In this document: positions 30,073-49,883 of the stretch, piece by piece
How positions within the stretch are numbered: position 1 is the first letter of the stretch
How the letters are laid out: each line of letters begins with the position of its first letter
Source of the DNA: Byssovorax sp.
GTDB lineage: Bacteria > Myxococcota_A > Polyangia > Polyangiales > Polyangiaceae
Length of the DNA: 64,000 bases
NCBI GenBank assembly: GCA_025362495.1
Contig: JANYGI010000026.1
Location: forward strand, 1 to 64,000
Reading direction: 5' to 3'
Notes under the pieces: model-generated
What the model saw: the letters and a program-made list of their open reading frames with translations, nothing else
Told to the model about the DNA's origin: nothing
Database searches by the model: none
Position numbers and translations under genes: made by a program

Positions 30073-31368
30073 ATGACCCCCGACCAGAATGCACCGACCG
30101 GCGAGGAAGCTCGCGTCGACGAGACCGCCGCCGCGGCGCCCGGAGCGCCGTCGAGCTCCTCTGGATCGGACGAGCCGAAGGTCGCATCGTTTCCCGGATC
30201 AGCGCTCTTTCGTGAAGAGGCAGTGAATGCTTATCTTCGCGGCGATCGCGAGAGCAACGTGCTGCGCGCTGCTCCTCCGTGGACATCCACGATACTCGTG
30301 GTGGCCGCGAGCCTGGTGACAACGGCGCTGGTGATCGCGGTGGTGGGGAGAGTCGAGATCACGAGCAGAGGTCGCGGCGTGCTGCGGGCGCGCGGCAATG
30401 CGTTGACGCTCGCCGCGCCGAGCGCAGGACTCGTGGACGACGTCCGCGCGAGCTCCGACGACGTGGTCAATGCCGGCGACGTCGTCTTGACGATGCATCG
30501 CATCGACCGAAAGGCCTCCGGGCTCGACGCAGTGCGGAGAGTTGCGGCGATCGAGGCGTCGATGGAGGCCGTCGAACGGCGGCGCAGCGAGCCCCACCCG
30601 ACGCGCCGAGCGCTCCTCACCAAGCGCGTCGCGCTGCTCGAGCTGCGCATCGACAGCGAGAAGAAGAGCGCGGTGCGACTCGAAGGCAAGGCGCCCCGCC
30701 CCGCCGCATCGGCGCCAGCCGACCAGCGCGTCGAGCTCGAAACCGTCAAGAACCAGGAGCTGCTCCTCGAAGACGAGCTCCTGACGACGAAAAACCAGCT
30801 AGCAAACCTGGATTCCGAGATCGACGCGGAGCTGCGGGACCCGGCGAACGAAGCGCTGGAGGCGCGGGTGAAGCACGCCGCGATCCCCGGCGCGCAGGAA
30901 CGGATCGAGGTCATCGCCCCGCGCGCTGGCCGCCTCGAGGCCACGCCTCTTCGGGTCGGCGACAGCCTCACCGCCGGTGCGACGATTGGCAAGCTCATTC
31001 CCCTCGATCTTCCGACTCGGGTGGTCTCGTTCATTCCGGAGCGCGATCGTGCTTTCCTGGCGGAGGGGGCGGCAGCTCGCATCGAGATCGATCAACTACC
31101 GGTTTCGGAGTTCGGCGCATTCCAGGGGCGAATCACACGCATCGGGAGCGACCTGGCGTCGGCCGAGGAGATCCGCGAGGCGCTGGGCGATCAAGCGCAG
31201 CTCACCGGACCTCTGGTGCGCGTCGAGGTCGCGCTCGACGATGACGCTCACTCGCGACGGATGGCGCACCATCTGCACTCCAACAGCCTGCTGAGCGTCC
31301 GTTACACGCTCCGCCAGCGTCGGTTGATCACGCTGTTCGTCGAGCCGTTGCGACGGTGGCTGAACTAG
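30073..31368 (+). CDS. HlyD-family membrane-fusion protein of a peptide exporter
   Basis: The 431-aa protein has a disordered Ala/Ser/Glu-rich N-terminus, a membrane span near residues 75-97 (TSTILVVAASLVTTALVIAVVG), a biotinyl-lipoyl-like segment LAAPSAGLVDDVRASSDDVVNAGDVV, a helical hairpin (about 150-260), and a closing beta domain with VIAPRAGRLEATPLRVGD and VVSFIPERDRAFLAEG. This is the HlyD/NHLM adaptor architecture. It links the inner-membrane ABC exporter to an outer-membrane channel encoded elsewhere. It ends at 31368, only a few bases before the C39 exporter's ATG, so they form one operon. Confidence 0.88.
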   Translation: MTPDQNAPTGEEARVDETAAAAPGAPSSSSGSDEPKVASFPGSALFREEAVNAYLRGDRESNVLRAAPPWTSTILVVAASLVTTALVIAVVGRVEITSRGRGVLRARGNALTLAAPSAGLVDDVRASSDDVVNAGDVVLTMHRIDRKASGLDAVRRVAAIEASMEAVERRRSEPHPTRRALLTKRVALLELRIDSEKKSAVRLEGKAPRPAASAPADQRVELETVKNQELLLEDELLTTKNQLANLDSEIDAELRDPANEALEARVKHAAIPGAQERIEVIAPRAGRLEATPLRVGDSLTAGATIGKLIPLDLPTRVVSFIPERDRAFLAEGAAARIEIDQLPVSEFGAFQGRITRIGSDLASAEEIREALGDQAQLTGPLVRVEVALDDDAHSRRMAHHLHSNSLLSVRYTLRQRRLITLFVEPLRRWLN

Positions 31369-31373
31369 CATCG

Positions 31374-33512
31374 ATGCTGTCGTTCGCTCGTGTCGCGCGT
31401 CGCGTGCCGTACATCCCGCAGATGGAAGCCACGGAGTGCGGCGCTGCGTGTCTGGCAATGGTGCTCGCCTATTACGAGCACCACGCGCCGCTCGCCGAGG
31501 TACGCCAGCAATGTCGGACATCCCGCGATGGCGTGACGGCGCTCGACATCGCCGCGGCGGCGACCCGATATGGTCTCGACGTGACCCCCGTGCGCCTCGA
31601 AGTGGACGAGCTCCTCAGCGCCACTGGGCCGGCCATCCTGCACTGGCGTCTCAACCACTTCGTCGTCTTCGATCACGCCGCGTCCGACCGCGTGTTCATC
31701 GTCGATCCCGCCGGTGCTCCCAGCGAGGTGTCGATGGAGCAGCTCCGCGAGGAGTTCTCCGGCGTCGCCTTGTTCCTCGAGCCCGATGCAGACTTCGTGC
31801 GCCGGCGCGAAGTGAGCCCGAGCCTCTCGCGCCATGCGTCCGCGTTTCGTGCCGTCGCCCGGCCAGCCGCTCTGCTCATTATCGCGATTTTCATGCTGGA
31901 GGTGCTGTCTTTCATCTTTCCTGCGGCGACTCAGGTGGTGATCGATCTCGTCATCAAGCCGGGCCAGGATCAGTGGCTATCGTTCGTCGCGGCAGGGCTG
32001 CTCGTCGTCACCGCCCTGCGGTTTGCCGTCTCCGCCGCGCGCGATCGGATCATCACGGGGATGCGCATCGTCCTCGACACGAAGCTGATGGGCAGCTTCA
32101 TGGACCACCTGCTCGCGCTGCCTCTCGGCTTCTTTGAGCAGCGCTCGACAGGCGATCTCATGGACCGCGTGCGGGGGAACATCGCGCTGCGCGACGCCAC
32201 GATCCAGGCGACTTACTCGCTGATGGACAGCTTCCTCGTCATCTCGTACTCCCTCTTGATGCTCGGGTACAACGCGCGGCTCGGCGCCGCCGTCATCGCC
32301 ACGGCGCTCGTGCAGGTGCTTGTGATCGCTCGGATACGCAAGCGCGCGCGCGATCTCACCGCCTTCGAGCTCGTGGCGGGAGGTCGTGAGGCGACAACGC
32401 TGGTGGAGGCTCTCTCCTACCCCGAAGCGACGAAGGCGTTCTGCGCCGAGCACCAGCAAATCGAGCGCTATGCGCAGCGCACGGCGACGCGACTCAACGC
32501 CACGCTGACGCGCCGCGCCTACGTGGAGGGGGCCGCACAGCTGATGCCGGTGCTGAGCGGCCTCAGTCGCGCCATTGTCTTCTGGATCGGCGGAAACGCC
32601 GTCATCCGTGACAACATGACGGTCGGGGTCTTTGCCTCGTTCCTGGTCATTGAAGCCCTGCTGGCGCGGCCCCTCGACAACCTGCTGGGCACGTTCTATC
32701 AATTGCAGCAGATCCGCCAGCAGCTCATCAGACTCGACGACGTGTGGTCCACCGAGCGGGAGCCCCAGGGGACGCTCTGCCCACGCGAGCTGCGTGGCGC
32801 CATCCAGCTGACCGACGTCCGCTTTCGATACGACAAGACCGGACCATACGTGGTGGACGGCGTGAGCATCTCGATCGAATCCGGCGCGAAGATCGCCATC
32901 GTGGGCCGCTCGGGTGCTGGCAAGTCGACGATCGCCAAGCTGCTGATCGGGATGCTACAGCCCGAGGAAGGCACCGTCGCCATCGACGGACACGACCTGC
33001 GAGCTCTCGACATGGGTCGGCTCCGCAAGCAGGTGGGCGTCGTCCTTCAGGACGCCTATCTCTTCGACGACACCGTTCGCAACAACCTGTGCCTCGGCGA
33101 AGATGTGTCTCTCTCTCTCCTGCGACGCGCGACGGACGTCGCGTGCCTCAGCGCCGTGATTGATGGCTTGCCGAAGGGCTTCGAGACCCGCCTCGGCGCG
33201 AACGCAGGTCGCCTGTCCGGAGGCCAGCGTCAGCGCCTCGTGCTCGCACGCGCGCTGGTCAAGAACCCACGCATCCTGCTCCTCGACGAGGCGACCAGCT
33301 CGCTCGATCTGCCCGTGGAAGCTCGCTTGCACGAAAATCTCACGGCGCTCTGCTGCACGCGCGTGGTCATCGCGCACCGCCTCGCGACCGTGCGAGACGC
33401 CGATCGCATCGTCGTCGTCGACGCCGGCCGCGTCGTGCAGACAGGGACCTACGACGAGCTCGCCTGCCAGCCGGGGATATTCCAGCGGATGGTCGCCACC
33501 CTGAGCCACTGA
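31374..33512 (+). CDS. Peptidase-containing ABC transporter (C39, bacteriocin-type exporter)
   Basis: The ATG at 31374 gives MLSFARVARRVPYIPQMEATECGAAC; a GTG at 31356 overlapping the hlyD end is a possible earlier start. The N-terminal C39 protease has its catalytic Cys 22 in ECGAAC, His in HWRLNHFVVFD and Asp in FIVDPAG. Six membrane spans follow (about 150-450). The ATPase has Walker A GRSGAGKST, signature LSGGQRQRL, Walker B ILLLDEATSSLD and switch IAHRLAT. It cuts double-glycine leaders while exporting the core. The GG precursor at 41045 is the natural substrate (inference). Confidence 0.93.
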   Translation: MLSFARVARRVPYIPQMEATECGAACLAMVLAYYEHHAPLAEVRQQCRTSRDGVTALDIAAAATRYGLDVTPVRLEVDELLSATGPAILHWRLNHFVVFDHAASDRVFIVDPAGAPSEVSMEQLREEFSGVALFLEPDADFVRRREVSPSLSRHASAFRAVARPAALLIIAIFMLEVLSFIFPAATQVVIDLVIKPGQDQWLSFVAAGLLVVTALRFAVSAARDRIITGMRIVLDTKLMGSFMDHLLALPLGFFEQRSTGDLMDRVRGNIALRDATIQATYSLMDSFLVISYSLLMLGYNARLGAAVIATALVQVLVIARIRKRARDLTAFELVAGGREATTLVEALSYPEATKAFCAEHQQIERYAQRTATRLNATLTRRAYVEGAAQLMPVLSGLSRAIVFWIGGNAVIRDNMTVGVFASFLVIEALLARPLDNLLGTFYQLQQIRQQLIRLDDVWSTEREPQGTLCPRELRGAIQLTDVRFRYDKTGPYVVDGVSISIESGAKIAIVGRSGAGKSTIAKLLIGMLQPEEGTVAIDGHDLRALDMGRLRKQVGVVLQDAYLFDDTVRNNLCLGEDVSLSLLRRATDVACLSAVIDGLPKGFETRLGANAGRLSGGQRQRLVLARALVKNPRILLLDEATSSLDLPVEARLHENLTALCCTRVVIAHRLATVRDADRIVVVDAGRVVQTGTYDELACQPGIFQRMVATLSH

Positions 33513-33517
33513 CGCCG

Positions 33518-35491
33518 ATGCAGCCTCAGGCCTCCCAATCGCTCGGTCCCCAGCATCTCATCACCCTGCGGCGCTTCTTCTTGCGCCTCGGCATCGAGGC
33601 GAGCCTCGAGGTGCTCCGGGAGTCGTTTGCTCCCATCTTCACGCTCAGCGCGGTTGCGCAGCACCTCCGGGAGCATGGGATCGCGGCTCGCGTTCATCGC
33701 ATCGCGACGGAAGATCTCGACGGCTTGACGCTCCCGACGCTGATCACGTTGAAGGAGAACGGGTGCGCGCTCCTCGTCGCGGTCGACCGATTCTCCGTCA
33801 CCGTGGAGGACGGGGTCGGCGCGACGAAGAGGCTATCACGCAGCGAAGCCGACCGGATCCTCGAGGGCCACGCGCTCGACGTGTTTCCGGCGCTCCCGCG
33901 GCTCGGAGGCCTGGTTCAGCGCATTCTCGATCTCTCCTCCGCGTCCGGGCCGCTCCAGGCTGCCATCGTGAAGCTCATCGTGTTGAGCCTCCTCGTCAAC
34001 TCATTCGGCCTGGTCACGCCGATCATCTCGCGCATCGCGCTCGACGACGCGCTCCCTGGAGGCGACCGTGGGCTGTTGAAGGTGATCGCGCTCGGCACGA
34101 TCGCACTGGCGATCCACGGCGCGTGGACCAGCTGGCTGCGGGCAAAGACGGTGCGTTACCTCGAGGCGCGCCTCCGTCACCGCACGACGCAAGACCTCTT
34201 CGAGTACACGCTGCGGTTGCCCTTCTCGGTCTTGCAAGATCGAGACATCGGTCAGAGCTACCAGGCCATCAGCTCTGGCGAGATGCTGAGCCAGCTGCTC
34301 GTCTCGCAGATCATCGTGCCAGTTCTCGACGGCGCCATGGCCCTCGGCTATCTGGTGATCCTCTTCGCGAGCGAGGGGGTCATCGGCGCGGTCACGGTCG
34401 CGGCCGCAGCGATCCTCGGTGTGCTCGGATATGTCGCCGGCAAGCTCGTCGCGGCCCGCAACGCCAGGCTCCTCGAGGCGCAGCGCCGCCAGCAAAACGA
34501 GCTTCGTCAGCTGCTCGCCGGCGCGCCCACGATCAAGGTCGCGTCGGCAGAGCGCGCCTTCGTGGCGAAGTGGCTGTCGGCGCTGATCGATGAGCAGCTC
34601 GCCGCGCTCGATCGACAATCGGTCGAGCTCGGATTCCAGCGCTTCGTCGACTTCATCGTTCAGGTGGTGAACTGCGGAGTGCTCGTGTGGAGCGCGCAGA
34701 GGTGCCTGGCCGGCGAGATGTCGCTCGGGCAGGTGATGGCCGGTCTCCAGGCGAGCAGCAGCTTTCTCGCTCTGTCCGTGCGGCTCGCGACCGTGCCGAT
34801 CCGGCTCGGGTCCGCGCGGCATCACCTCGATCGAGTGAACGAGCTGCTCGCGACGACCGGCGAGCCGCCGATCCCGACGGGGGCCTCCGTCAAGGTGGGG
34901 AATTCCGCGGACGCGATCACGTTCGACGACGTGTGGTTCCGGCACTCCTCGGACTCCCCATGGATCTTCGAGCGCCTGAATCTCAGCGTGAAATTCGGCG
35001 AGACACTGGAGCTCTCGTGGCCTTCCGGCGCGGGGAAGACGACGCTGATGCGTCTCGTCGCGGGGCTTTACGAGCCTGATCGCGGCACGATCACCGTCGC
35101 GGGCCACGCGCCTCGGCTCGCGCGGCCGCTCGTCGCGTACCTGCCTCAGACGACACATCTATTCAACGAGTCGGTCCTTGAAAACCTGCGCATCCTCTCG
35201 GGCGGCGCCGACTTCAAACGTCTGATGGCTGCCGCCGAGGCGACCGGCCTGAAGAGCCTCGTCGAGGAATGGCCCATGCGCTTCGACACGCGCGTCACGG
35301 CGGGGGGCACGAACGTGTCGAGCGGGCAACGGCAGCTGATCGTGCTCACGGCCTGCGTGGCGTCACCGCGCCCGATCTTGCTGCTCGACGAGTCGATGGC
35401 GCACCTGGATCGGCTTGCGCGGGCGCGCCTGCGAGGAGCGGATCTGTTCGCGGGGCGCACGATCGTCAGCATCGGTCATGAGCCAGGCTGA
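33518..35491 (+). CDS. Second ABC exporter subunit, C39-like domain without catalytic Cys and altered Walker A
   Basis: The gene begins five bases after the first exporter. The N-terminal 130 residues resemble a C39 domain in fold pattern (LRRFFLRLGIEASLEVL, then ALLVAVDRFSVTVEDG) but no ECGxxC motif is present, so it is likely a leader-binding relic. Six membrane spans follow (about 150-420). The ATPase has ELSWPSGAGKTT in place of the usual GxSGAGKT (the leading Gly is Trp), signature VSSGQRQL, Walker B ILLLDESMAHLD and IGHEPG. Its length is 657 aa. The pair suggests a heterodimeric exporter with one weakened site, as in NHLM-type loci. Confidence 0.88.
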   Translation: MQPQASQSLGPQHLITLRRFFLRLGIEASLEVLRESFAPIFTLSAVAQHLREHGIAARVHRIATEDLDGLTLPTLITLKENGCALLVAVDRFSVTVEDGVGATKRLSRSEADRILEGHALDVFPALPRLGGLVQRILDLSSASGPLQAAIVKLIVLSLLVNSFGLVTPIISRIALDDALPGGDRGLLKVIALGTIALAIHGAWTSWLRAKTVRYLEARLRHRTTQDLFEYTLRLPFSVLQDRDIGQSYQAISSGEMLSQLLVSQIIVPVLDGAMALGYLVILFASEGVIGAVTVAAAAILGVLGYVAGKLVAARNARLLEAQRRQQNELRQLLAGAPTIKVASAERAFVAKWLSALIDEQLAALDRQSVELGFQRFVDFIVQVVNCGVLVWSAQRCLAGEMSLGQVMAGLQASSSFLALSVRLATVPIRLGSARHHLDRVNELLATTGEPPIPTGASVKVGNSADAITFDDVWFRHSSDSPWIFERLNLSVKFGETLELSWPSGAGKTTLMRLVAGLYEPDRGTITVAGHAPRLARPLVAYLPQTTHLFNESVLENLRILSGGADFKRLMAAAEATGLKSLVEEWPMRFDTRVTAGGTNVSSGQRQLIVLTACVASPRPILLLDESMAHLDRLARARLRGADLFAGRTIVSIGHEPG

Positions 35492-35604
35492 CGGACGATG
35501 CCTCGGTGTCCGTCGCGGGCCGCCCCCGAGCGTCACTTTCGCGTCGAGGCGGCAGCCGCCTCGACTCCCTGGACAGCGACGCTGGCGACTTGTAGTCTGA
35601 ACTG

Positions 35605-36390
35605 ATGCATTTCGTGGTCGGCCACCCTCGTTCCGGAACAGCAATGATGACTCACCTCTTGAATGCGAGTGGGGGGGAGGTGGCCAGGCACGAGTACCTG
35701 ATCGACCAGTCCGGGCAAGCCCTGGTCGAGGGAGCTTCGCGCTACTACGAGGGCCTCTGCTCCGGTGAAGACATCAAGAGACTGCTCGCAGACTGCTACC
35801 TATCACCGGCCATCGAGATCGATTGTAACTGGAAGAACACCTGGATCCTGCCGCCTCTGATCGAGCTCTTCGCCGACGCCCGGTTTCTCCACCTCGTCCG
35901 CGATCCGCGGGTCAACGTGATCGCCTGCCACAACCTCGATTACTACGGCCAGAGCGCGTCGCTCCCGGCCGAAGCGGGGTACGAGGTCATGGTCCAGTGG
36001 CTCCGGGCGCTCCCGAGAATTCGGCGGTCCGAGTGGGAGACGCTCTCTCCTTTCGCGCGCAATTGTGTGTTCTGGGTGGAGACCCACCGCCTGATTCTCG
36101 CCGCTCTCTCTTCGCAGCCCGAACGCTATCTCCTGCGCCGGCTCGAGGATCTGAGCGACGATGAGGCGATCCGGGGTATCTATCGCTTCTTCGCTCTTCC
36201 GGTGGCCTCGATGGAAGACGTGCGACGGGCTCTGGCGACGCGGGTCAACACCAAGGTGGATGAGAAGAAAACCATCGCACGGACCAAGAGCGACATCCTC
36301 CCCCGCTTCGACGCGTGCGACGACGAAACTCAGGGGACTCTGCGCCGGATCTGCGGCCCCATCGCGGCGCAGCTCGGATACCTGATCTGA
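35605..36390 (+). CDS. Sulfotransferase-family protein
   Basis: The 261-aa protein opens with the PAPS-binding P-loop VGHPRSGTAMMTHLLN (residues 4-19). The 3'-phosphate contact LHLVRDPRVNVIACHN follows near residue 97. The rest is helical, ending ICGPIAAQLGYLI as in many family members. It would transfer a sulfo group to a hydroxyl or sugar. A 113-base gap separates it from the second exporter, same strand. In this island it is a candidate tailoring enzyme of the peptide or its sugar. The fold is clear; the substrate is unknown. Confidence 0.8.
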   Translation: MHFVVGHPRSGTAMMTHLLNASGGEVARHEYLIDQSGQALVEGASRYYEGLCSGEDIKRLLADCYLSPAIEIDCNWKNTWILPPLIELFADARFLHLVRDPRVNVIACHNLDYYGQSASLPAEAGYEVMVQWLRALPRIRRSEWETLSPFARNCVFWVETHRLILAALSSQPERYLLRRLEDLSDDEAIRGIYRFFALPVASMEDVRRALATRVNTKVDEKKTIARTKSDILPRFDACDDETQGTLRRICGPIAAQLGYLI

Positions 36391-36566: not shown

Positions 36567-37994
36567 ATGCGCGCCATGCGTGTCTTGAGCGTCCTGACAA
36601 CCATCCTCGTTTCGATGCTCCCCTCGGGCGGTCTGGCTGGATGCACGTCGAGCTCAGGACGGCCACCGTCACCATCGTCTCCGGTGGTCGCGCAGACTCC
36701 ACAGATGAGACTCCCTGGCCCCGAGCCGGTCCGCCGCTCCGCGCTCCACGTCGCCCGATTATTCGACGGCTCGGCGCGCGTTGAGGGACGTCGTCCCACG
36801 GTGTTCGTGGAAGGAGCCATCATTGTCGCCGTGGACCCCGACGGGGGAGCGCGGGAGGGCTTCGAGGACATCGATCTCGGCGACGTGACGATGCTGCCGG
36901 GGCTGATCGACGCGCACACGCACGTCATGCTCGAGAGCGATCCGGCCCTCTCCGGAAACCGGGATATCCTCCTCACCGTGCTGGAGGTGCCAATGGCAAC
37001 TCGTGTGTTGAGAGCCGTCCCCGTCGTCCGAGATCTCCTGATGGCCGGCTTCACCACCGTGCGCGACGTGGGCAACTCGGGCGATGGAGGCGATGTGGCG
37101 CTGCGTGACGCCATCGCGGCGGGCTGGATGGACGGCCCACGCATGGTCGTTTCGACTCGAGCGCTCGCTCCGGTCGGGGGCCAGTTTTCGCCGCTCGCGC
37201 CGGAGGCGGAGCCGCTCATCGCCACCGAGTACGCTGTCGTCCGAGGCGCCGAGGACGCTCGACAGGCCGTGCGTCGCGCGCTCCAGCGGCGGGCCGACTG
37301 GATCAAGGTGATCGTGAGCGAGGAGAACAGCATCCTCTCGCTGGCGGAGCTGACGGCGATCACCGAGGAGGCGCACCGAGCTCACGTGCAGGTCGCAGCA
37401 CATGCAATAGGAGAGCTATCGACCGAGATCGCCGTCGCGGCGGGCGTCGATTCCCTCGAGCACGGGCGCCTCATCTCCGAAAAGACGCTGACGCGCATGG
37501 CGGCGCAAGGGACGTGGCTCGTGCCGACAGCTCACTCGGTCCAGCTGTCACTGGCACGCTTCAGCGCGACCGGCCGGCCGACCGCCGACGAGGTTCGGGC
37601 GCGCGAAACGGGGATCCGGACGCGCCGAGCGGGGCTCCGCCGAGATCTGGAGCTCGCCCGTCGGCTGAACGTGCCGCTCGCCTTCGGATCGGACTTCTAC
37701 AATCGCGTCGAGGACCTCGGATATACCCGCGGCCAGGCCATCGTTCAGCAGCTGATCGAGTACGGCGATCTGGGCTTCTCGGCGGAAGAGGTGCTTCGTC
37801 TGGCGACACGGGACACCGCTCGTATGCTCCGTTTTCAAGGCCGCTTGGGCACCGTGGCGCCGAGCGCGATTGCTGATCTGGTGGCGGTGCGCGGGGACCC
37901 GATGCACGATCTGCGGGCGCTGGCCGAGCCGGTCTTCGTCATGAAGGAAGGGCGCGTCGTGCGCGACGAACGGCGGGCGCCGACGCATCACTGA
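36567..37994 (+). CDS. Amidohydrolase-family lipoprotein (imidazolonepropionase-like)
   Basis: The signal MRAMRVLSVLTTILVSMLPSGGLAGC ends in a Cys, suggesting an exported lipoprotein. The metal-dependent barrel shows LPGLIDAHTHVML (HxH), WIKVIVSEENS (Lys), HVQVAAHAIG, VDSLEHG, and the catalytic Asp in AFGSDFYN. Length 475 aa fits the family. It hydrolyses an amide or cyclic amide outside the cytoplasm. Its place between the export genes and the carbamoyltransferase could reflect a role in the pathway, or it may be a passenger; the periplasmic signal argues against a core tailoring role. Confidence 0.83.
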   Translation: MRAMRVLSVLTTILVSMLPSGGLAGCTSSSGRPPSPSSPVVAQTPQMRLPGPEPVRRSALHVARLFDGSARVEGRRPTVFVEGAIIVAVDPDGGAREGFEDIDLGDVTMLPGLIDAHTHVMLESDPALSGNRDILLTVLEVPMATRVLRAVPVVRDLLMAGFTTVRDVGNSGDGGDVALRDAIAAGWMDGPRMVVSTRALAPVGGQFSPLAPEAEPLIATEYAVVRGAEDARQAVRRALQRRADWIKVIVSEENSILSLAELTAITEEAHRAHVQVAAHAIGELSTEIAVAAGVDSLEHGRLISEKTLTRMAAQGTWLVPTAHSVQLSLARFSATGRPTADEVRARETGIRTRRAGLRRDLELARRLNVPLAFGSDFYNRVEDLGYTRGQAIVQQLIEYGDLGFSAEEVLRLATRDTARMLRFQGRLGTVAPSAIADLVAVRGDPMHDLRALAEPVFVMKEGRVVRDERRAPTHH

Positions 37995-41044: not shown

Positions 41045-41236
41045 ATGAACGACGAACAGAAGAAGACGCGCACTCCTGGCCGCAAGCTCGCGAAGGAGGA
41101 TCTCGAGCGAGTTGTCGGAGGCTTACCGCCCGTCAAGGGGTGTGGCACCCAGGGGTGTCCGGGCGGCGCCGGCAGCGCTTCACCGACGGCTGCAGACGCG
41201 CAGCCTTCGGTCAAGGGCTTCGGCTGGAACGAGTGA
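41045..41236 (+). CDS. Double-glycine RiPP precursor peptide, 63 aa
   Basis: ATG 41045 has GGGAGG at 41030-41035. Residues 1-26 are a leader rich in Lys, Glu and Arg that ends KEDLERVVGG, the double-glycine type cut by C39 proteases, predicted after Gly 26 (base 41122). The 37-residue core (27-63) reads LPPVKGCGTQGCPGGAGSAS then PTAADAQPSVKGFGWNE. It has two Cys (33, 38), Thr 35 and 48, Ser 44, 46 and 55, and a repeated P-x-VKG-x-G unit. The first core codon is TTA, rare in this DNA. No lanthionine or YcaO genes are near, so Cys/Ser/Thr are glycosylation candidates. Confidence 0.85.
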   Translation: MNDEQKKTRTPGRKLAKEDLERVVGGLPPVKGCGTQGCPGGAGSASPTAADAQPSVKGFGWNE

Positions 41237-41325: not shown

Positions 41326-41940
41326 ATGAGCGCGAAATCCAGCGACGTTTTATTCACTGCGGCGCGAGAGCTCTCCGGAGACGGAGTGACTTTCGGGGTC
41401 GTCGAGGAGCACTTCCTGGTTGTGTCGAACACTCTCCAGGGAGTGCTCCTCGAATCGGTTTGTTCTGTCGTCGCCTCTCTGCGGCGCGCCCGCGATGACG
41501 GGGCATCGGTCTTCGTGTTTGGCAATGGGGGCAGCGCGGCCACTGCGCTGCATCTGGCGAACGATCTCACCATGGCATGCGCGGTCGGCCGGCCTGGTCT
41601 CCGGGTGACCTGCTTGAGCGCGAACCTGAGCCTTATCACCGCCATCGCGAACGATTTCGGATATGACCAGGTCTTCTCGAGGCAGCTCGCTTCGCTGGTT
41701 CGCCGGGGCGACGTGGTCATTGGTATCTCCGGCTCCGGGAATTCGCCCAATTGTGTGAATGCCTTTGATTGCGCGCGCCGGGCTGGCGCGACATGCGTCG
41801 GGATATTGGGCTTCGACGGCGGCAGAATGCTCGCGCAGAGCGACGTGTCCGTGCATGTGCGGTGCGATGATTACCTCGTCGTCGAGGACGTGCACATGGT
41901 GGTCGCACACAGCCTCGCCCGCGCCCTCAGGCGCGGCTGA
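41326..41940 (+). CDS. gmhA: SIS-domain sedoheptulose-7-phosphate isomerase
   Basis: ATG 41326 has AGGA four bases upstream; an earlier TTG frame runs back toward the precursor and looks less good. The 204-aa protein has the SIS fold: VFGNGGSAATALHLANDLT, then VVIGISGSGNSPNCVNAF, and a C-terminal HMVVAHSLARAL. GmhA converts sedoheptulose 7-phosphate to D-glycero-D-manno-heptose 7-phosphate. The assignment is supported by the HddA and GmhB/HddC-type genes that follow, although the SIS family also contains other sugar isomerases. It is 89 bases downstream of the precursor, co-directional. Confidence 0.82.
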   Translation: MSAKSSDVLFTAARELSGDGVTFGVVEEHFLVVSNTLQGVLLESVCSVVASLRRARDDGASVFVFGNGGSAATALHLANDLTMACAVGRPGLRVTCLSANLSLITAIANDFGYDQVFSRQLASLVRRGDVVIGISGSGNSPNCVNAFDCARRAGATCVGILGFDGGRMLAQSDVSVHVRCDDYLVVEDVHMVVAHSLARALRRG

Positions 41941-41988: not shown

Positions 41989-43614
41989 ATGTGTGACTCG
42001 AAGTACTGGTGGCCGCTCGACCTGATCGGCGAGGAGCGGACTGCATTCGGTGCCTTCCAGGCCCGTATGCGCGAGGAGCCGGTGGTTCTCGATCAGGTGG
42101 CGGCGAGCGCCACGATTGGCATGCTGACGATGGGAATGCGCCATCACATCCAGGGCCTCGCCGTCGACGATAGGCTCGGCAGCTTTTGCCATCTGCTGAA
42201 TGGGTGGGGCGACTTGATCGTGAACGGCGCGAAGCTGACCGCGTCGCTCGCCAACTTCACGCAGCGTGGCCCTGGAGGCGGCTGGTGCCTCCTCCAGATG
42301 AACCCCGAGGGGGAAGTTCACCCCTGGCAGACCTTTGCCTATGCCACCATGGCTGGCATCGCGCCGGCCCGGATCCTCTACGACGGAGGTCCCACGTTGC
42401 GCGACCTCGCTCTGGGATCGCGTGCGCTCCCCACGCGCGACGCCGACGAGTTCGGGCACCTGCTTTACGCGCTCGCGACAATCGAGCCGGACGCCGGCGT
42501 CCACTTCTCGCTGGAAGGGGAGCGTCACACCACCAGGCAACTCGTTGCGATGGCCGTTCGCGCCCATCACGAGGGCACTTTTCGCGTCTGTCGGAAGTTT
42601 CACCTCACCGAGGGATTGTGCGCCGTGGCCGCGCGCATAGAAGGGCTGAGCGAGTACCGCGAGGCCGCACAGGGCTTCCTCGAAGGCCAGATGGACGTCT
42701 TGTTCGCGGTGGGCGCGCTCCTGGAGCATGCTGTCGCGCTCCACGACGCGCGGCGGTCACCCGACGCAGGTGGGCTTGTCGAGCGCCTGTGGGACAAGCT
42801 CGCGATCAACCCCCTCATCGAGAATCATGCCTACTTGGCGGGACACCTGATGGAGCTGGCCTGCCTTGCACACGGCCTCGGGTATACCGTGTCTCTCGCG
42901 CATCGACGCGCAATGGCGTATATCGCGAATGCACTCAATCGACTCTTGCCAGTCTTCGCGGGCGGGATAGCATGGCCCCTTTGTTTCCTCCATCTGGGGC
43001 ACTATCGGCGCGGGCTCAGCTTGCTGTCCTTGCTCGAGGATCGCGGCTTTGTAGGCGAGCTTTCTCCCGGTGATCTGTCGGCGTTCTCGGTCAACTTCGA
43101 CGCCGTGGCTCCGGCTCGGTTGCCGGAGAGCCCCCCGGAGGATGCTCAGCGCGTGTTTCGCCTCTTGGCGCAACCGGCGGTGCCGCGGCCGCGATTTGCT
43201 GCGACCATCGAGTGCTTTCGGGCCATCGCGCCGGCCGGTTTGCATCCACGAGGCGTGCTCGCGCACTTCCGGCGTGCGGCGCCGCAAGGCTGGCCACGCG
43301 CCCTCCATTACGAGTTACTCGACGATGGCGACGAGGTCGGCGTGGAGATCCACCTGGAGGACGCGTCGCTTCGCCCTCTCGCCGAGCCGTTGCGCGGCCT
43401 GCTGGTGGAGGGGCGCGCGCGCTTCCCCGATGCGCGGGTGGACTGGGACGACGCCTGGATGGCGGGGCGCTTTCGTGTGCGTTTCCCTTCCGAGACGGCG
43501 CCGGAGCGCGTGGCTCAAGCGATGGTCGACCTGATCCACGGCACCTCGCGCTCCCTCACGGAGGCCGTCGAGCAGCTTCGTGGCCACTCGTCGGCTGTTG
43601 CGCTGAGCCCATGA
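41989..43614 (+). CDS. Unrecognised 541-aa protein of the peptide island, possible alpha/alpha-toroid
   Basis: I do not recognise a family. The first 170 residues include NFTQRGPGGGWCLLQMNPEGEV and HPWQTFAYATMAGI. Residues 170-360 have repeated pairs of helices with conserved aromatic and His residues (AHHEGTFRVCRKFHLTEGLC, IENHAYLAGHLMELACLAHG, HLGHYRRGLSLLSLLED), the look of an alpha/alpha barrel or toroid. Residues 370-541 may be a second domain with beta strands. There is no signal peptide. Its stop overlaps the next ATG (ATGA), so it is produced stoichiometrically with the heptose enzymes. A role in modifying the peptide or joining sugar to it is only a hypothesis. Confidence 0.75.
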   Translation: MCDSKYWWPLDLIGEERTAFGAFQARMREEPVVLDQVAASATIGMLTMGMRHHIQGLAVDDRLGSFCHLLNGWGDLIVNGAKLTASLANFTQRGPGGGWCLLQMNPEGEVHPWQTFAYATMAGIAPARILYDGGPTLRDLALGSRALPTRDADEFGHLLYALATIEPDAGVHFSLEGERHTTRQLVAMAVRAHHEGTFRVCRKFHLTEGLCAVAARIEGLSEYREAAQGFLEGQMDVLFAVGALLEHAVALHDARRSPDAGGLVERLWDKLAINPLIENHAYLAGHLMELACLAHGLGYTVSLAHRRAMAYIANALNRLLPVFAGGIAWPLCFLHLGHYRRGLSLLSLLEDRGFVGELSPGDLSAFSVNFDAVAPARLPESPPEDAQRVFRLLAQPAVPRPRFAATIECFRAIAPAGLHPRGVLAHFRRAAPQGWPRALHYELLDDGDEVGVEIHLEDASLRPLAEPLRGLLVEGRARFPDARVDWDDAWMAGRFRVRFPSETAPERVAQAMVDLIHGTSRSLTEAVEQLRGHSSAVALSP

Positions 43615-44873
43615 GGGCTCGCGGAGCGATCGTCGCTGGCGGACGCGCGGCGAGGATGGGCGCACTGGCTGGTTCGCTTCCCAAATCGTTGTTCGTGGTC
43701 GGCGGTCGCCCGGTGCTCGACCATCAGCTCGAGATACTCGACGCCGCCGGTATCGACGAGATCACGGTCTTCGTGGGGTACCTCGGCGACGCCATCGAGG
43801 CGCACCTCGCGCGTCGGGAGCCGACGTCCGCTCGCACGACGGTCGTATGCGAGCCGACGCCGCGCGGCTCAGGCGGATGCCTCTCGGCCGCGCCCGACGA
43901 TCGGACCCTCGTCGTCCTGCTCGGCGACGTCATGATGCACATGGACCTCACGGCGCTGCTCGATTCCCACCGGCGGAGCGGGGCGGAAGCGACCATCGCC
44001 GTCCACCCCAACGATCACCCCTGGGACAGCGATCTGGTCGACCACGACGCCGCCGGGCGAGTCCGTCGGATCCACCGCAAGCCGCACGCGGCGGGCCTCC
44101 TGGCCCGCAACGCGGTGGTTGCCGGGGTGTACGTTTTGGAGCCGTCCATCCTTCGACGCATCCCCCGACATGCGGCTGCCGACCTGACCCACGACATCAT
44201 CGCCACGGCGGTCGACGGGGGCGCGCGAGTGCATGCTTACGCCACGGCGGAGTACTTGAAGGACATGGGGACCCCGGATCGCTACCGACGCGTCACGGAG
44301 GATTACTCGAGCGGGCGGGTGCTCGCCTGCCACCGGTCCCAGCGGCGCCGCGCCGCCTTCATCGATCGTGATGGCACGCTGAACCAGCACGTTGGGCACC
44401 TTCGCCGCGCCGATCACATCGAGCTGCTCCCCATGGCCGCTCGCGCGATTCGACGGCTCAACGAGGCCGGCGTCCTCGCCGTCTGTGTCACGAATCAACC
44501 GGTTCTGGCCCGCGGCGAGTGCAGTGAAGCGGAGCTCGAGCGGATCCACGCGCAGCTCGAGATGGCGCTCGGCAACGAGGGGGCTTTCCTCGACGCGATC
44601 TATGTTTGCCCTCATCACCCCGAGTCTGGTCACCTCGGGGAGGTGTCGGCGCTCAAGATCGAGTGCGCTTGTCGCAAGCCGGGGACCGGGATGGTCGACA
44701 CTGCGCTCCTCGACCTGAACATCGATCGCGATCGCTCCGCCGTATTTGGCGACACCTGGCGGGACCTGGCGATGGCCGAAAACGCGCGGATGCCTGGCTT
44801 CCTGGTGAGCGACACGGCCCCGCTCGAAGATGCCGTGAAGGCCTGGCTGGCGCAAAGCGAGACCTCGTGCTGA
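43611..44873 (+). CDS. Fused sugar-1-phosphate nucleotidyltransferase and heptose-bisphosphate phosphatase (HddC-GmhB)
   Basis: ATG 43611 overlaps the previous stop. Residues 1-235 are a nucleotidyltransferase: GAIVAGGRAARMG, LPKSLFVVGGRPVLDHQLE, VVLLGDVMMHMD and EYLKDMGTPDRYRRV. Residues 240-420 are a HAD phosphatase: AFIDRDGTLN (catalytic DxD), CVTNQPVLARGE, then CPHHPE...CACRKPGTGM, the zinc-binding Cys/His set of GmhB, and FGDTWRDLAMAENA. GmhB removes the 7-phosphate from heptose 1,7-bisphosphate and HddC then makes a nucleotide heptose, so the fusion joins two consecutive steps. The nucleotide (GDP by analogy with HddC) cannot be read from sequence. Confidence 0.88.
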   Translation: MRARGAIVAGGRAARMGALAGSLPKSLFVVGGRPVLDHQLEILDAAGIDEITVFVGYLGDAIEAHLARREPTSARTTVVCEPTPRGSGGCLSAAPDDRTLVVLLGDVMMHMDLTALLDSHRRSGAEATIAVHPNDHPWDSDLVDHDAAGRVRRIHRKPHAAGLLARNAVVAGVYVLEPSILRRIPRHAAADLTHDIIATAVDGGARVHAYATAEYLKDMGTPDRYRRVTEDYSSGRVLACHRSQRRRAAFIDRDGTLNQHVGHLRRADHIELLPMAARAIRRLNEAGVLAVCVTNQPVLARGECSEAELERIHAQLEMALGNEGAFLDAIYVCPHHPESGHLGEVSALKIECACRKPGTGMVDTALLDLNIDRDRSAVFGDTWRDLAMAENARMPGFLVSDTAPLEDAVKAWLAQSETSC

Positions 44874-45838
44874 TCACCCGGACGCCGCTTCGTGTCAGCT
44901 TGCTCGGCGGCGGGACCGATCTCCCCGCCGTGTACAGTCGCGGCGGTGGCGCCACGGTTGGAGCCGCGCTCGCCGCCTGGATCGACGTCGCCGTTCGGCC
45001 GCGCCTCGAACACGAGCCCCACCGCTTCGTCGTGGCGTGTGGAGGCTACGAGACCGCTGATTGCGTCGGCGCGATAGCGCATCCGATCGTGCGTGAGGCG
45101 CTTCGGTTCACACAGACGGACGAGCCGCTGGAGATCCATTCCATGGCTTCGGTGCCCGCGGGAACCGGTCTGGGGTCGTCTTCATCGTTCACCGTTGGCC
45201 TGTTGCACGCGCTGTACGCTCGACGCGACCAGGCCGTGACGCCGATGCAGCTCGCTCGCGACGCCTTCTGCGTCGAGGCGGAGCGGGTGGGGTGTCCAAT
45301 TGGCCGGCAAGATCACGCGTTTGCAGCGCTCGGTGGGTTACGCGAGCTGAGGTTCGACGCCGACGGCGGCGTGCGCTCGCGCGTGCTGTCGGGCGCCGGT
45401 TTGGCGCGCCTGCAGTCGTCGTTCCTTCTGTTCCGGCTCGCGGGAACGCGGTCAGCGGCCGAGGTCCTCCGTCGCCTCGATCTGGCGGCGGACCATCGCC
45501 AGGAAATCCTCGGACGCATGCGCGATTCCGTCAGCGATCTCGTCCGCGAGATCGAAGACGGGTGCAGTCTCGCTCGGATCGGAGAGATGCTTCATCGCGG
45601 CTGGATCTTGAAGCGTGAGCTCGGAGCTTCCACGCCCGAGGTCGACGCGGCCTACGCCCTGGCGCGCGAACATGGAGCGCTTGGCGGGAAGCTCCTCGGG
45701 GCGGGGCAGACGGGGACTCTGCTGCTCGTGGCGCCGGTGGAGCGCGCCCCGGCGCTCCGCCGCGCGCTCGCCGGACAGGGGGAGCTTCGCTTCGCGATCG
45801 ATCCCGTCGGGAGCCGGGTGCTCTTGCGCGCCCCCTGA
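44867..45838 (+). CDS. hddA: GHMP kinase, D-glycero-D-manno-heptose 7-phosphate kinase-like
   Basis: GTG 44867 overlaps the previous stop by seven bases and gives MLITRTPLRVSLLGGGTDLPAVY, the HddA-type N-terminus. The GHMP loop VPAGTGLGSSSSFTVGLLHAL lies near residue 95. GRQDHAFAALGG and GKLLGAGQTGTLLL follow. Length 323 aa. HddA phosphorylates the anomeric position of heptose 7-phosphate, feeding the phosphatase/nucleotidyltransferase fusion. With GmhA upstream this is a full route to an activated heptose. Convergent with the glycosyltransferase gene, stops one base apart. Confidence 0.9.
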   Translation: MLITRTPLRVSLLGGGTDLPAVYSRGGGATVGAALAAWIDVAVRPRLEHEPHRFVVACGGYETADCVGAIAHPIVREALRFTQTDEPLEIHSMASVPAGTGLGSSSSFTVGLLHALYARRDQAVTPMQLARDAFCVEAERVGCPIGRQDHAFAALGGLRELRFDADGGVRSRVLSGAGLARLQSSFLLFRLAGTRSAAEVLRRLDLAADHRQEILGRMRDSVSDLVREIEDGCSLARIGEMLHRGWILKRELGASTPEVDAAYALAREHGALGGKLLGAGQTGTLLLVAPVERAPALRRALAGQGELRFAIDPVGSRVLLRAP

Positions 45839-45839
45839 T

Positions 45840-46700
45840 TCACGGCGTGCTCCCGGTGCTCCCGGGCGCTCCACACCTGTCGCGGAAGGCGGCTCGGTAG
45901 CACGCGGATTCATCGCCCCAGAGCTGGTCGACCGTCGCTTCGATGTTGAGCTCGAGCTGGATATCTTTGCGAAGTGTACGGAGTAGATGAGCCGGTGAGA
46001 TGGAGTAGATCAGGCCAACGTGATACGGATTGTCCGCCCCGCTCAGCCAGTCGATACTCTCCACGGCCTCGCTCGCTGCGGGGGGCGAGACGACGGCGCT
46101 TCGCCCTTCGTGTCCGTTGTTGCCGACCAGGCTGGCCAGTGGAGCGCCGTGTTCGACGAGCCCGCGTGCGTGCCAGATGCGTCGGTGATGCGCCATTGCC
46201 CAGAGATCGATGCGCGCGTCCTCGGGCAAGGCCTGCTCTTCGGGAACGATGGCCGCGTCTTGCCAGCTCAGGAACTCTAGCAAGCGTGCGCGCGGGATGG
46301 CGCAGGCGACGGTGACGAAGCCATCGTCGGACGTCCACCACGACTCGTTCGCCTCGGTGGCGTCGAGCTCCGTCTCGTGGTTCGCGTAGAAGCACACCAG
46401 ATCGTCGCTGCGCACCGCCAGGGCGGCGTGAACGGCCTCGACGAAGAGCGGACATGGAAGCGCGTCGTCGTTGAGGAGCACGACATGCGAGGCATCCTGG
46501 CGGAGCCCCCATTCCCAGCATGCCCTGGCCACGCTCCAGACGCCGCGACGCGTCGTATCGCGCTCGATGTGCAACGCGTCTCCGGGCCGGAGCTGCGCCG
46601 TCAGCGTCGCGCTCAGGGTCGCGGTCATGCTCACCCGCGCCGGCTCGAACGCGGCATGCATGACTGCGAATGCGAAGTGAGATGCCGGAGGCGTGCTCAT
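45840..46700 (-). CDS. Glycosyltransferase-like protein (GT-A fold, small)
   Basis: ATG 46698-46700 overlaps the previous stop as ATGA. The 286-aa protein shows an acidic motif VVLLNDDALPCPLF near residue 75 (the DxD-like donor/metal site of GT-A enzymes), then VACAIPRARLLEFLSW and LPEDARIDLWAMAHH. The C-terminal 90 residues are variable and end with a Cys. It may transfer a sugar, but the motif set is weaker than in the two other island glycosyltransferases, so confidence in function is moderate. It is the last gene of a three-gene minus-strand operon. Confidence 0.65.
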   Translation of the reverse strand: MSTPPASHFAFAVMHAAFEPARVSMTATLSATLTAQLRPGDALHIERDTTRRGVWSVARACWEWGLRQDASHVVLLNDDALPCPLFVEAVHAALAVRSDDLVCFYANHETELDATEANESWWTSDDGFVTVACAIPRARLLEFLSWQDAAIVPEEQALPEDARIDLWAMAHHRRIWHARGLVEHGAPLASLVGNNGHEGRSAVVSPPAASEAVESIDWLSGADNPYHVGLIYSISPAHLLRTLRKDIQLELNIEATVDQLWGDESACYRAAFRDRCGAPGSTGSTP

Positions 46701-48433
46701 CGGGTCTTGCGCAGCCACACGCTCTGCCCTCCGCCGCCGAGGCTTGGCGACGTTTGCTCCGCGAGGTCGTCGCCGTGAGCGCGCGCCGTAGGGTCGGTGT
46801 GATAGACGATCTCGAAGGTGCGGTTGTACTGGAGGAATGCACGGGCAAGGAGCGGGGCTGTCCGGGCGCGGGCGTCGAGGAGGTCGTTCGAGGACGGGAG
46901 CGGATCGAGGGCCGCGTGCACGTGGATGTACACACCGGGCTGCAGGCTCGGCAGAATTTCGTGGAGGATCCGGATCATGTCACGCTCGTCGGTCGACGTC
47001 GTGAACAGGATGTCGCCCGGACGAAGTGCAGCAAAGAGGCCGAGATCCACGTCTTGCAGCTTCGTCGAAAGCAGCTCGACCCGCTCGCGATCTCCGGGCT
47101 TGAACCACGAGAACAGGTGAACCGGAGCGGGATCGATCAGCGTCATGTGCATGGTGCCGCCCAGGAAGCGATCGTTCACGTCGACCGCCGCCGCGAAGGC
47201 GAACCCGGCGCCGATCGCGACATATCGGCCAGGGCGCAGGTGGCGCAGCATGAATTGCAGCGCCAGCGCGTCTGCGCGCGGGAAGGAGCCATTGTCGAAG
47301 TAGTAACGCAGCCCTGGTTGCGGGCGCGCCGAGAACGGTTGATCGGCGTGAAATTCGCGAAAATGCTCGATCAGAGCCAGTTGCGCCGGGTGGTTCAAGT
47401 CCACGCCGGGGATGTTCTCGGTGCCGGGGGTGAAGGTGATCGCGATCCGCGGGGCGGGGGCGTCGCGATCCGGTGTCGAGGAAGGATCGTGAGACGCAGG
47501 CGCGCCCGCGCGCGTAGCCGGATTCACGCGCAACGGCTCGACGCGGGGGACGACGGCGATCCCCCCGGCGCTCGAGCCCTCCACCGCGCCGTGCGGTTCG
47601 ACCGAAGCGCGCGTTTCTGCGCCGAGCTGCATGCGCGCTTGCCACGTTGCGACGTCGTCCTCGTAGGTGCCCAGAAAATGGCCGAGCCCGTAGTTGTGAA
47701 TGCAGGTTGCAAAGTTCAAGCTCTCCGTCGCGGCGCGCGTGCTCCCGGCGAGCGCGCGCACGTCGTCGCCGTGCGTGAGGTGCAGCACGGCGCCCGCGCG
47801 CCGATGTTCGAGCCCACGCGCGAGCTTCAAGCGGGCCACCAGATCGAGATCTTCCCAGCCCCAGCCTTCCAGATCGGAGTTCATACCGCCCACGGCGACG
47901 AAGTCGTCCCGGTGCATCACGATGAGGCCGGGGCCGCTGCGACTCCCGTCTTCGAGGTGGGTACGGTTCGTCTCGAGGTCGAGCGCGAGCCGCGGGCCGA
48001 GGAGCTTCACCGAGTGCGCGATCGTGTGTAGGCCTTGCGACTCGCGAGGCGGAGCGGCGAGCGCGGCGGACTCGTGGACACGGTCGACGGTGACGAACGT
48101 TCCGGGCGCGAGGCTCGCGCGCATCTCGTCGAAGAATCCTCGGCGGAGCACGACATCGGCGTCCAGGAACGCGAGCAGGCCGGTGCGGGCGAGGCTCGCG
48201 CCGAGGTTGAGCGCGAGGCACTTGTTGAAGGCCGTGTCGACGCGTATCCGACGGAGCGATGGCAGCTCGATTCCCGTCGTGAGGCTCGCGAGGTGATCCT
48301 CGGCGCCGCCGCAGTCGACGACTATCACCTCCGCGCGCGCTGAAGCCAGCTCGCCTCGATTGCGTCGGAGCGTCTCCCGGAGCTCGGCGCGGTCGCACCA
48401 CGCGATCACCACGGTGAGGGACCGCTCAGGCAT
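46697..48433 (-). CDS. Fusion of a GT2-like glycosyltransferase with a methyltransferase-like domain
   Basis: ATG 48431-48433 lies in an overlap with the next gene. The N-terminal part (about 1-230) is a GT-A enzyme: TVVIAWCDRAELRETLRR, VIVVDCGG, GLLAFLDADVVLRRGFFDEM (DxD), and GMNSDLEGWGWEDLDLVARL, the ED motif of polymer-type enzymes. Residues about 330-570 follow a class I methyltransferase pattern (YVAIGAGFAFAAAVDVNDRF, MHMTLIDPAPVHLF, RPGDILFTTSTDERD, YIHVHAALD), yet several polar residues I expect in active members of that family are replaced. It may be a degenerate or non-SAM domain. It probably adds sugar to the peptide or its glycan. Confidence 0.78.
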   Translation of the reverse strand: MPERSLTVVIAWCDRAELRETLRRNRGELASARAEVIVVDCGGAEDHLASLTTGIELPSLRRIRVDTAFNKCLALNLGASLARTGLLAFLDADVVLRRGFFDEMRASLAPGTFVTVDRVHESAALAAPPRESQGLHTIAHSVKLLGPRLALDLETNRTHLEDGSRSGPGLIVMHRDDFVAVGGMNSDLEGWGWEDLDLVARLKLARGLEHRRAGAVLHLTHGDDVRALAGSTRAATESLNFATCIHNYGLGHFLGTYEDDVATWQARMQLGAETRASVEPHGAVEGSSAGGIAVVPRVEPLRVNPATRAGAPASHDPSSTPDRDAPAPRIAITFTPGTENIPGVDLNHPAQLALIEHFREFHADQPFSARPQPGLRYYFDNGSFPRADALALQFMLRHLRPGRYVAIGAGFAFAAAVDVNDRFLGGTMHMTLIDPAPVHLFSWFKPGDRERVELLSTKLQDVDLGLFAALRPGDILFTTSTDERDMIRILHEILPSLQPGVYIHVHAALDPLPSSNDLLDARARTAPLLARAFLQYNRTFEIVYHTDPTARAHGDDLAEQTSPSLGGGGQSVWLRKTR

Positions 48434-49883
48434 TCGAGGGCTCGGTGCGGCTCGCGATGAGCAGGCCTGACTCAAGCATGGCCTGGAGGGCCTCGTCGCT
48501 GCCGAGTTGCCCGGCGCGAAGGCTCTCGAGCGTCCCGCCCGCGACGAGGTGGTCGACGATCGCTCGCGCGGTCCCGTCGAGCTCGAAGCGCGCCGGCCAG
48601 GCGGGATCCAGCAGTCGGAACCGCGTGTCCGCCTCTTGCTCCAGCGGTGCGGCGAGTCGGATCGACGCAGCCTCGGCAATCCGCGGGGCGGGGCCGCTCA
48701 CGTAATGGGCCACGACATCACGGTAGTGCTCCCAGGGCTCGTTGGGCACGCGCGGGAGCAAGCCCGCCTCGGGGTGGGGGATCCGCGGCGTCGCGGTGAC
48801 GACGGGGCGCGAGCGCCCGCTCCACCGCATCTCGACCCCGTCGCGGACGGCGCTCCTCAGCGCTTCTCCACACGTTTCAACGGAATATCGAGCGCGCATC
48901 CGCTCGACGCCCGCCGCGCCGCAGCGCGCGGCCAGCGAGGCGTCTTCGAGCAGTCGCTGCGTCGCAGCGATGGCACGCGCGACATCCAGGCGGATCCCGC
49001 TGTCCGTGATCCAGGTGTCTACGAGAAAGCCCGTCTCGCCGTCGCCGATCGTGTCTTTCAATCCACCGTACGCCGCGCCCACCACCGGTACTCCGCAGGC
49101 CATCGCCTCGACGGGGGCATAGCCGAAGTTTTCGTCGATCGAGGTCGTTGGGTGCACGAGGACATCCATCGCGTTGTAGGCGGTGGCCAGATCGTCGTTC
49201 GACAGGTTCGCCGGCAGATAGATGACATCGTCAGCGATCCTCAGCGACCCGAGGAGCTTGCTGATGATGTTCGGATAGTCGGCGGTCACGTAGGGGAGCA
49301 CTGGATAGTCGACCCAGTAATTGCCAATCACGACGGCGCACGCCGTCCTGGGGGCAATGCGGCGCTTCACCTCCGCGAACATTCGCAAGAAGCCGTGAAG
49401 GTTCTTCTGCGGGAGCAAGCGCCCGACGAACCCCACGACGTGGTCGGTGGGGTGAAGCGGCAGAAGATCGCGCGCCTTGGCCTTGTCCTGCCGGTGAAAG
49501 ACCGAGGTGTCCACCGGCAGTGGAAGATGCCGAAGGAGGGGACCTTCGCCGTTCACCATGGCGGCGAGAATGCGCATGTCCGAGAGACAGTTGACCAGCA
49601 AGACATCCGAGGTTTCGAGCTTGCCGATGCTGTTTTGCAGCATGTCGTGATCGAGGATTGGTCCGCCGTGCATGGCGAGGACGAGCGGCCAGTCCGGGTG
49701 CGCGTCGACTCGCCAGGAGGCGCCGCCGGAAAAATGAAGAGACGCGTCAGGAGCCTTCGTCGCCGGATCCGAGGCGTGGCGGAGCTCGAACGACTCCTCG
49801 AGGGCGCGGAGATAGAATCTTCGCGTTCGCTCGACGCTGGGCCACGGGTGTGGGCCGGCGCCGTGAAGCTCGATAATCGGCAT
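48426..49883 (-). CDS. GT4-type glycosyltransferase with C-terminal winged-helix-like tail
   Basis: ATG 49881-49883 has GGAG eight bases upstream; earlier frames are excluded as non-protein-like. The GT-B body (about 1-345) shows VVGFVGRLLPQKNLHGFLRM, DVLVHPTTSIDENFGYAPVEAMACGVPVV and GDGETGFLVD, the GT4 donor-site signature (E-x7-E). The last 75 residues (ARFELDGTARAIVDHLVAGG ... ALQAMLESGLLI) resemble a winged-helix/PqqD-like module. It begins the minus-strand operon. In a RiPP locus the tail could bind the leader peptide, which would bring the enzyme to the precursor; this is inference. Confidence 0.8.
   Translation of the reverse strand: MPIIELHGAGPHPWPSVERTRRFYLRALEESFELRHASDPATKAPDASLHFSGGASWRVDAHPDWPLVLAMHGGPILDHDMLQNSIGKLETSDVLLVNCLSDMRILAAMVNGEGPLLRHLPLPVDTSVFHRQDKAKARDLLPLHPTDHVVGFVGRLLPQKNLHGFLRMFAEVKRRIAPRTACAVVIGNYWVDYPVLPYVTADYPNIISKLLGSLRIADDVIYLPANLSNDDLATAYNAMDVLVHPTTSIDENFGYAPVEAMACGVPVVGAAYGGLKDTIGDGETGFLVDTWITDSGIRLDVARAIAATQRLLEDASLAARCGAAGVERMRARYSVETCGEALRSAVRDGVEMRWSGRSRPVVTATPRIPHPEAGLLPRVPNEPWEHYRDVVAHYVSGPAPRIAEAASIRLAAPLEQEADTRFRLLDPAWPARFELDGTARAIVDHLVAGGTLESLRAGQLGSDEALQAMLESGLLIASRTEPSNA

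Follow-up and report, generated by a model that had tools for sequence, protein, structure and literature searches.

Gene content of the island

The island described here occupies positions 30073-49883 of Byssovorax sp. contig JANYGI010000026.1 and lies within a window of 64,000 nt, the whole stretch of DNA that was analysed. The host genome is assembled in 240 contigs that total 10.8 Mb. Gene calling and domain scans recovered, each in its place, all of the genes that a sequence-only reading of this DNA had listed for the interval, and added three features that were missing from the list: an amidohydrolase, a 541-aa orphan protein (U541) encoded between GmhA and HddC, and an RRE-like tail on a GT4 glycosyltransferase. 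The GC3 of the island genes is mostly ~0.73-0.86, as compared with ~0.9 in most of the flanking genes, and this distinct composition suggests that the island may have been acquired. An Eco57I-type DNA methylase (49946-52921) immediately adjoins the right edge of the island.

The left part of the island is devoted to export. An HlyD-family membrane-fusion protein (30073..31368, + strand; PF13437, 2.4e-12; weak match to NHLM_micro_HlyD) is followed by a C39 peptidase-ABC exporter (31356..33512, +; PF03412, 1.7e-34) that matches PCAT1 (4ry2) and ComA over its full length. Its catalytic Cys, His and Asp are intact, as had been claimed (QMEATECG...LNHFVVF...VDP), and the protein is predicted from its sequence to cut after GG and to export the peptide. 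This is the sole C39 domain of the host genome, and the presence of a leader-processing peptidase and exporter inside the cluster is a general hallmark of RiPP loci. A second, accessory ABC exporter (ABC2; 33518..35491, +; PF00664/PF00005) has a degenerate C39-like N-terminus that lacks the catalytic Cys and His and gives no C39 match; ABC2 was not found on the Enhygromyxa contigs described below. As a cluster marker ABC2 was set aside, its matches being general exporters with the exception of one set in genome G260, where the HlyD-C39-ABC2 combination is again found, next to genes for a GG peptide and a radical SAM enzyme. That locus (contig C778, L051, 1593-8605) encodes a precursor, a radical SAM/SPASM-like enzyme, a C39 exporter, a second exporter, a TolC-like protein and HlyD, with the two exporters arranged as in the window.

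The precursor gene (41045..41236, +) encodes 63 aa, with a leader, TRTPGRKLAKEDLERVVGG, that terminates in VVGG and a 37-residue core, LPPVKGCGTQGCPGGAGSASPTAADAQPSVKGFGWNE, of monoisotopic mass 3498.63 Da. A clear ribosome-binding site, GGGAGG, lies ~10 nt upstream of the ATG, and a scan of the upstream region for promoters and terminators found none. The precursor matched none of the Pfam or NCBIfam leader families. The identification of this ORF as a double-glycine precursor is borne out by a homologue at the equivalent place of the Enhygromyxa cluster (tblastn E 3e-6 against a 7.9-kb contig).

Downstream of the precursor are the genes for a complete set of enzymes of the GDP-D-glycero-D-manno-heptose pathway, GmhA, HddA, GmhB and HddC, among which the identity of HddC is the weakest. 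The sedoheptulose-7-phosphate isomerase GmhA (41326..41940, +; PF13580, 7e-18) has solved phosphoheptose isomerases as its best matches (PDB GmhA, 1e-32). An HddC-like nucleotidyltransferase is fused to the GmhB phosphatase (43611..44873, +; PF00483, 1.4e-22; GmhB models, 1e-34), and the PDB matches of the fusion are GmhB (4e-25), mannose-1-P guanylyltransferase (3e-19) and C. jejuni HddC (3e-14). Because the HddC domain scores 29 bits, far under the NCBIfam HddC cut-off of 300, it is uncertain which nucleotide is used and even which sugar results. The D-glycero-D-manno-heptose-7-phosphate kinase HddA (44867..45838, +) matches WcbL and C. jejuni HddA in the PDB at ~1e-17. U541 (41989..43614, +), which has no Pfam or NCBIfam match, lies between GmhA and the HddC-GmhB fusion, and its gene and that of the fusion have overlapping starts.

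Three genes with overlapping starts follow on the minus strand. The GT4 protein (48426..49883; PF00534, 7.3e-26) bears the RRE-like domain at residues ~404-480. The second is a GT2/GT7C-type glycosyltransferase (46697..48433; PF10111, 6.8e-10; PF02709, 2.1e-9) with a weakly methyltransferase-like C-terminus (PF13578, 1.6e-3); an ARAGORN call of a 97-base tRNA-Asp antisense within this gene (47732-47828) is probably a false positive. The third is a 286-aa orphan (45840..46700) that is possibly GT-A-like on account of an LLNDDA motif and has no convincing Pfam or PDB match. The sequence-only reading had counted three glycosyltransferase-type proteins; GT4 and GT2 fit known families, but the 286-aa protein fits none, and it was also discarded as a marker since no convincing homologue was found in the class.

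Between the exporters and the precursor lie a sulfotransferase (35605..36390, +; PF13469, 7.7e-10), a lipoprotein-like amidohydrolase (36567..37994, +; PF01979, 3.7e-32), a PIG-L type N-deacetylase (38061..38795, -; PF02585, 1.1e-10; ATG at 38795) and an O-carbamoyltransferase of the NovN/GdmN/TobZ type (38806..40461, -; PF16861, 1.7e-60; PF02543, 5.5e-28), whose PDB matches are NovN (5.6e-69), GdmN and TobZ.

Counterpart of the island in Enhygromyxa salina SWB005

A homologous cluster was found in Enhygromyxa salina SWB005, a member of the same class as the Byssovorax host but of another family. There, a 9-kb contig (L096/L105) carries, in order, U541, HddC-GmhB, HddA, GT4 and GT2, at 37-50% identity to the island proteins, and a 7.9-kb contig (L125) carries the C39 exporter, HlyD, the precursor and gmhA, the last at the contig end. 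The gmhA gene stops 21 nt short of the end of its contig and U541 begins ~23 nt inside the other, and the contig ends, which nearly match, fall where the spacer between gmhA and U541 would be expected; the junction of the split cluster is proposed on this basis, and two clusters are known in total. The order precursor-GmhA-U541-HddC/GmhB-HddA is identical in both, whereas the GT4-GT2 pair is inverted and the orientation of the exporter genes differs. Common to the two clusters are HlyD, C39, the precursor, GmhA, U541, HddC-GmhB, HddA, GT4 and GT2, with 50% identity for GmhA and for the HddC-GmhB fusion, 44% for the GT part of GT2 and 42% for GT4. The second exporter, the sulfotransferase, the amidohydrolase, PIG-L, the carbamoyltransferase, the 286-aa orphan and the methyltransferase-like tail of GT2 are found in the window and not on the SWB005 contigs, which are short, so that absence from them does not prove absence from the genome. 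A polysaccharide deacetylase adjoins GT2 in SWB005.

The Enhygromyxa precursor has 62 aa (MKRINDHIASRRTRTPGAKLEQDQLGSAVGG/GCCVQGCSGCDLPGIGDLPKFPPGGALPVFP), with a calculated mass of 3000.40 Da for the core GCCVQGCSGCDLPGIGDLPKFPPGGALPVFP, and lies directly before gmhA. Alignment of the two precursors showed that TRTPGxKL, an L, VGG and a GC..QGC.G segment are common to both, and that the cores share the Cys, Gln and Gly of the CxxQGC region and no Ser or Thr position. An HMM built from both detected the pair at E 1e-36 and 3e-33 in 310 genomes of the class, the next match being at 0.004, and hence no further convincing precursor homologue was found in those genomes. A short leader-plus-core precursor conserved between two related clusters is another general feature of RiPP loci. 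The conservation of TRTPGxKL, which extends beyond the GG site, suggests that some partner other than the C39 peptidase also binds the leader. Another genome of the same class, G375, encodes a 58-aa GG-leader peptide, MNKRMKQDSEKKLPKFEARTLGADELGRVTGG/FPPESAGCVSVCHADGIYDGDGAPVS (L147, 1471-1647, minus strand).

The heptose genes appear to be dedicated to the cluster. The island gmhA is the only gmhA found in the host genome, and the only gmhA of Enhygromyxa likewise lies in its cluster. With HddA as the query, 280 genomes of the class gave a large number of ordinary copies, 35-44% identical, and a closer one in SWB005 (47%). In a tree of 31 HddA sequences, the island and Enhygromyxa copies group together (100/99) apart from the other sampled HddAs, although the grouping joins two long branches and the clade should be viewed with caution; a second HddA of the host, on contig C193, was placed among copies of its own family. 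On that contig (L098, 9783-11986), the second hddA-hddC pair is accompanied by an epimerase and a methyltransferase, with no gmhA nearby. The HddA of genome G494 (43% identity) was set aside; it resides in an exopolysaccharide-type locus in which no precursor was seen.

Full-length U541 was found only in the island and in Enhygromyxa, that is, in 2 of 318 genomes of the class, and no relatives were detected in viral contigs and plasmids. Its N-terminal half is predicted to be an alpha/alpha toroid resembling transcobalamin, terpene cyclase, GH105 and PL5 types with Z up to 14, values in a range in which helical toroids match without kinship; the C-terminal half is predicted to resemble type III secretion chaperones (Z ~8). 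The protein has numerous conserved His, Cys and Glu residues. In both clusters U541 retains its place between GmhA and HddC, for which reason we regard it as a probable pathway enzyme and as a candidate second tailoring enzyme. Its C-terminal domain could not serve as a family marker because it is found on nuclease-like and AAA proteins too, and the full-length match was used instead. In other myxobacteria this domain stands at the C- or N-terminus of nuclease-like and AAA (McrB-like) proteins (L017, 9141-10187; L018, 9670-10884; L020, 1057-2349; L021, 8259-9938), and it is possibly a general binding domain.

The RRE-like tail of GT4 and the proposed pathway

AlphaFold modelling of the two GT4 sequences gave a confident C-terminal domain, with pLDDT mostly 80-86, and a poor GT part. 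The predicted fold of the tail consists of four short strands, three helices and a final strand, and its two best structural (VIA) matches are residues 3-86 of TigE (Z 6.0) and 3-89 of ThcOx (Z 5.2), Z values of 5-6 being modest and obtained from a model with a poor GT part. Both of these N-terminal regions, of 86-89 residues, are RREs of RiPP enzymes. At the sequence level support is not clear: the tail has no Pfam PqqD match, and hhalign against three PqqD-like sequences returned the expected register with a probability of 2.3%, which is weak. If the fold is as modelled, the RRE-like tail is the most direct sign that this glycosyltransferase acts on the leader-bearing peptide, and GT4 is likely the peptide heptosyltransferase.

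We consider it probable that the island is a RiPP cluster for a heptosylated peptide. In the pathway that we propose, GmhA, HddA, GmhB and HddC would start from sedoheptulose-7-phosphate and make a nucleotide-activated D-glycero-D-manno-heptose, with GDP as the probable nucleotide. The C-terminal RRE-like domain of GT4 would bind the TRTPGxKL leader of the 63-aa precursor, and GT4 would transfer the sugar to the core, where a Cys within the conserved GC-xx-QGC segment is the most plausible acceptor. GT2 would then extend the glycan on the core peptide, U541 would add a further modification, and C39 would cleave after VGG, the product being exported with HlyD. The genes, their order, the homologous precursors and the dedicated heptose genes are given by the sequence, the RRE-like fold and the toroid are predictions, and we infer the heptose on the peptide, the residue that carries it and each tailoring step. 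Since the residues common to the two cores are Cys, Gln and Gly, with no position of Ser or Thr among them, our favoured guess is a sugar S-linked to a core Cys; disulfides together with an O-linked sugar are a possible alternative.

The sequence-only reading had proposed a heptose-modified RiPP that is further carbamoylated or sulfated. The heptose part is strongly supported by the synteny, the confinement of gmhA to the cluster, the separate HddA clade and the RRE-like domain of GT4. Carbamoylation and sulfation did not fare as well, as only adjacency speaks for them: the SWB005 contigs lack the carbamoyl-, sulfo- and PIG-L genes, which are therefore accessory or coincidental. By their position, the carbamoyltransferase, sulfotransferase, deacetylase and methyltransferase-like parts may decorate the product further in the strain of the window.

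One could envision that the peptide and its exporter are only by chance the neighbours of heptose and glycosyltransferase genes that form part of an LPS, capsule or exopolysaccharide locus. GmhA, HddA, HddC and GmhB normally serve LPS or capsule, many members of the class have HddA with GmhA/HddC neighbours, and PIG-L, sulfotransferase and carbamoyltransferase genes are found in polysaccharide loci, too. We think that this is very unlikely, because the precursor and the hdd block stay together, with C39 and HlyD, in two families of the class; the island HddA clade stands apart from the other sampled copies, and the host has another hddA-hddC pair (C193); GT4 bears its RRE-like tail; and none of the island proteins scanned was recognised as a polymerase, flippase or polysaccharide export protein. 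The sequence-only reading had itself named conservation of the heptose genes with an LPS or capsule locus, in relatives without the precursor, as an observation that would speak against it; as far as genomes can tell, the closest HddA accompanies a precursor and does not lie in an LPS locus.

Alternatively, the product could be a glycosylated RiPP with a sugar other than plain heptose, either through an altered nucleotide sugar or through use of common hexoses by GT4 and GT2, with heptose a minor or later addition. The weak HddC subfamily call, with mannose-1-P types as the closest guanylyltransferases, is in line with such a product, as are the several additional tailoring genes of the window's island and the polysaccharide deacetylase beside GT2 in Enhygromyxa. 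However, the joint presence and co-conservation of GmhA, HddA and GmhB point to a heptose phosphate substrate, and none of the island proteins scanned was recognised as an epimerase, dehydratase or reductase of sugar conversion, so that we view this possibility as unlikely. A bacteriocin-like or signalling peptide that leaves the cell unmodified, with the hdd and GT genes making an immunity or receptor glycan, is in our view highly improbable. GG peptides that contain Cys can leave the cell with disulfides and no other modification, yet the RRE-like domain on GT4 and the conservation of the leader at TRTPGxKL, beyond the GG site, speak against this reading. A heptosylated RiPP is the reading that we retain.

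Relation to known systems

The sequence-only reading had put the island forward as a candidate new class of RiPP. This is possible and not proven, and a variant of the glycosylated RiPPs is the safer label. A class defined by S-heptosylation of a core Cys by a GT4-RRE protein, with U541 (a toroid with a possibly peptide-binding, chaperone-like domain) as the second enzyme, is a tentative proposal that we hold at somewhat less than even odds. The two homologous clusters provide a directly testable system: they combine a leader motif with a glycosyltransferase that is a candidate for binding the leader, all the genes of a sugar-donor pathway and the conserved U541. Few RiPP glycosyltransferases are known, and we know of no RiPP carrying a heptose made by its own cluster. 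If the proposal is true, peptide engineering would gain from the clusters both a new sugar and a glycosyltransferase of new architecture.

The HlyD, C39 ABC and second ABC genes resemble those of NHLM/NHLP export (TIGR03794/03796/03797), but the island genes do not reach the cut-offs of these three NHLM bacteriocin export models, scoring under the equivalog values (582 vs 853 bits for ABC1), and the precursor has no leader-family match. The GmhA, HddA, GmhB and HddC set is that of the GDP-D-glycero-D-manno-heptose pathway of the Campylobacter capsule and of Burkholderia WcbL; in the island, unlike in those systems, HddC is fused to GmhB, and it is a peptide precursor, not a capsule locus, that accompanies the genes. 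With the glycocins (sublancin, glycocin F, pallidocin, enterocin F4-9), the island shares a small Cys-containing GG-leader peptide, a glycosyltransferase in the cluster and a C39 exporter. Glycocins employ SunS-type GT2 enzymes and ordinary hexose or GlcNAc donors, whereas the island has a GT4 with an RRE-like tail, a dedicated heptose pathway and U541, and the matches listed for its GT2 among PDB sequences at E<=1 are of GT7/chondroitin synthase types with no SunS entry.

No description of a heptosylated RiPP was found in the titles and abstracts of the papers listed from the open-access collection searched, and such a product is likely, though not certainly, new to the literature. RRE-glycosyltransferase fusions were predicted earlier in candidate RiPP clusters by RRE-Finder (PMC7470986, PMC12710340). 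The fusion named in PMC12710340 concerns PF00535 (GT2) proteins, and the string "heptos" is absent from its text. In contrast to the fusions of these two reports, that of the island joins the RRE-like tail to a GT4 protein (PF00534) and is accompanied by dedicated hdd genes and a conserved precursor.
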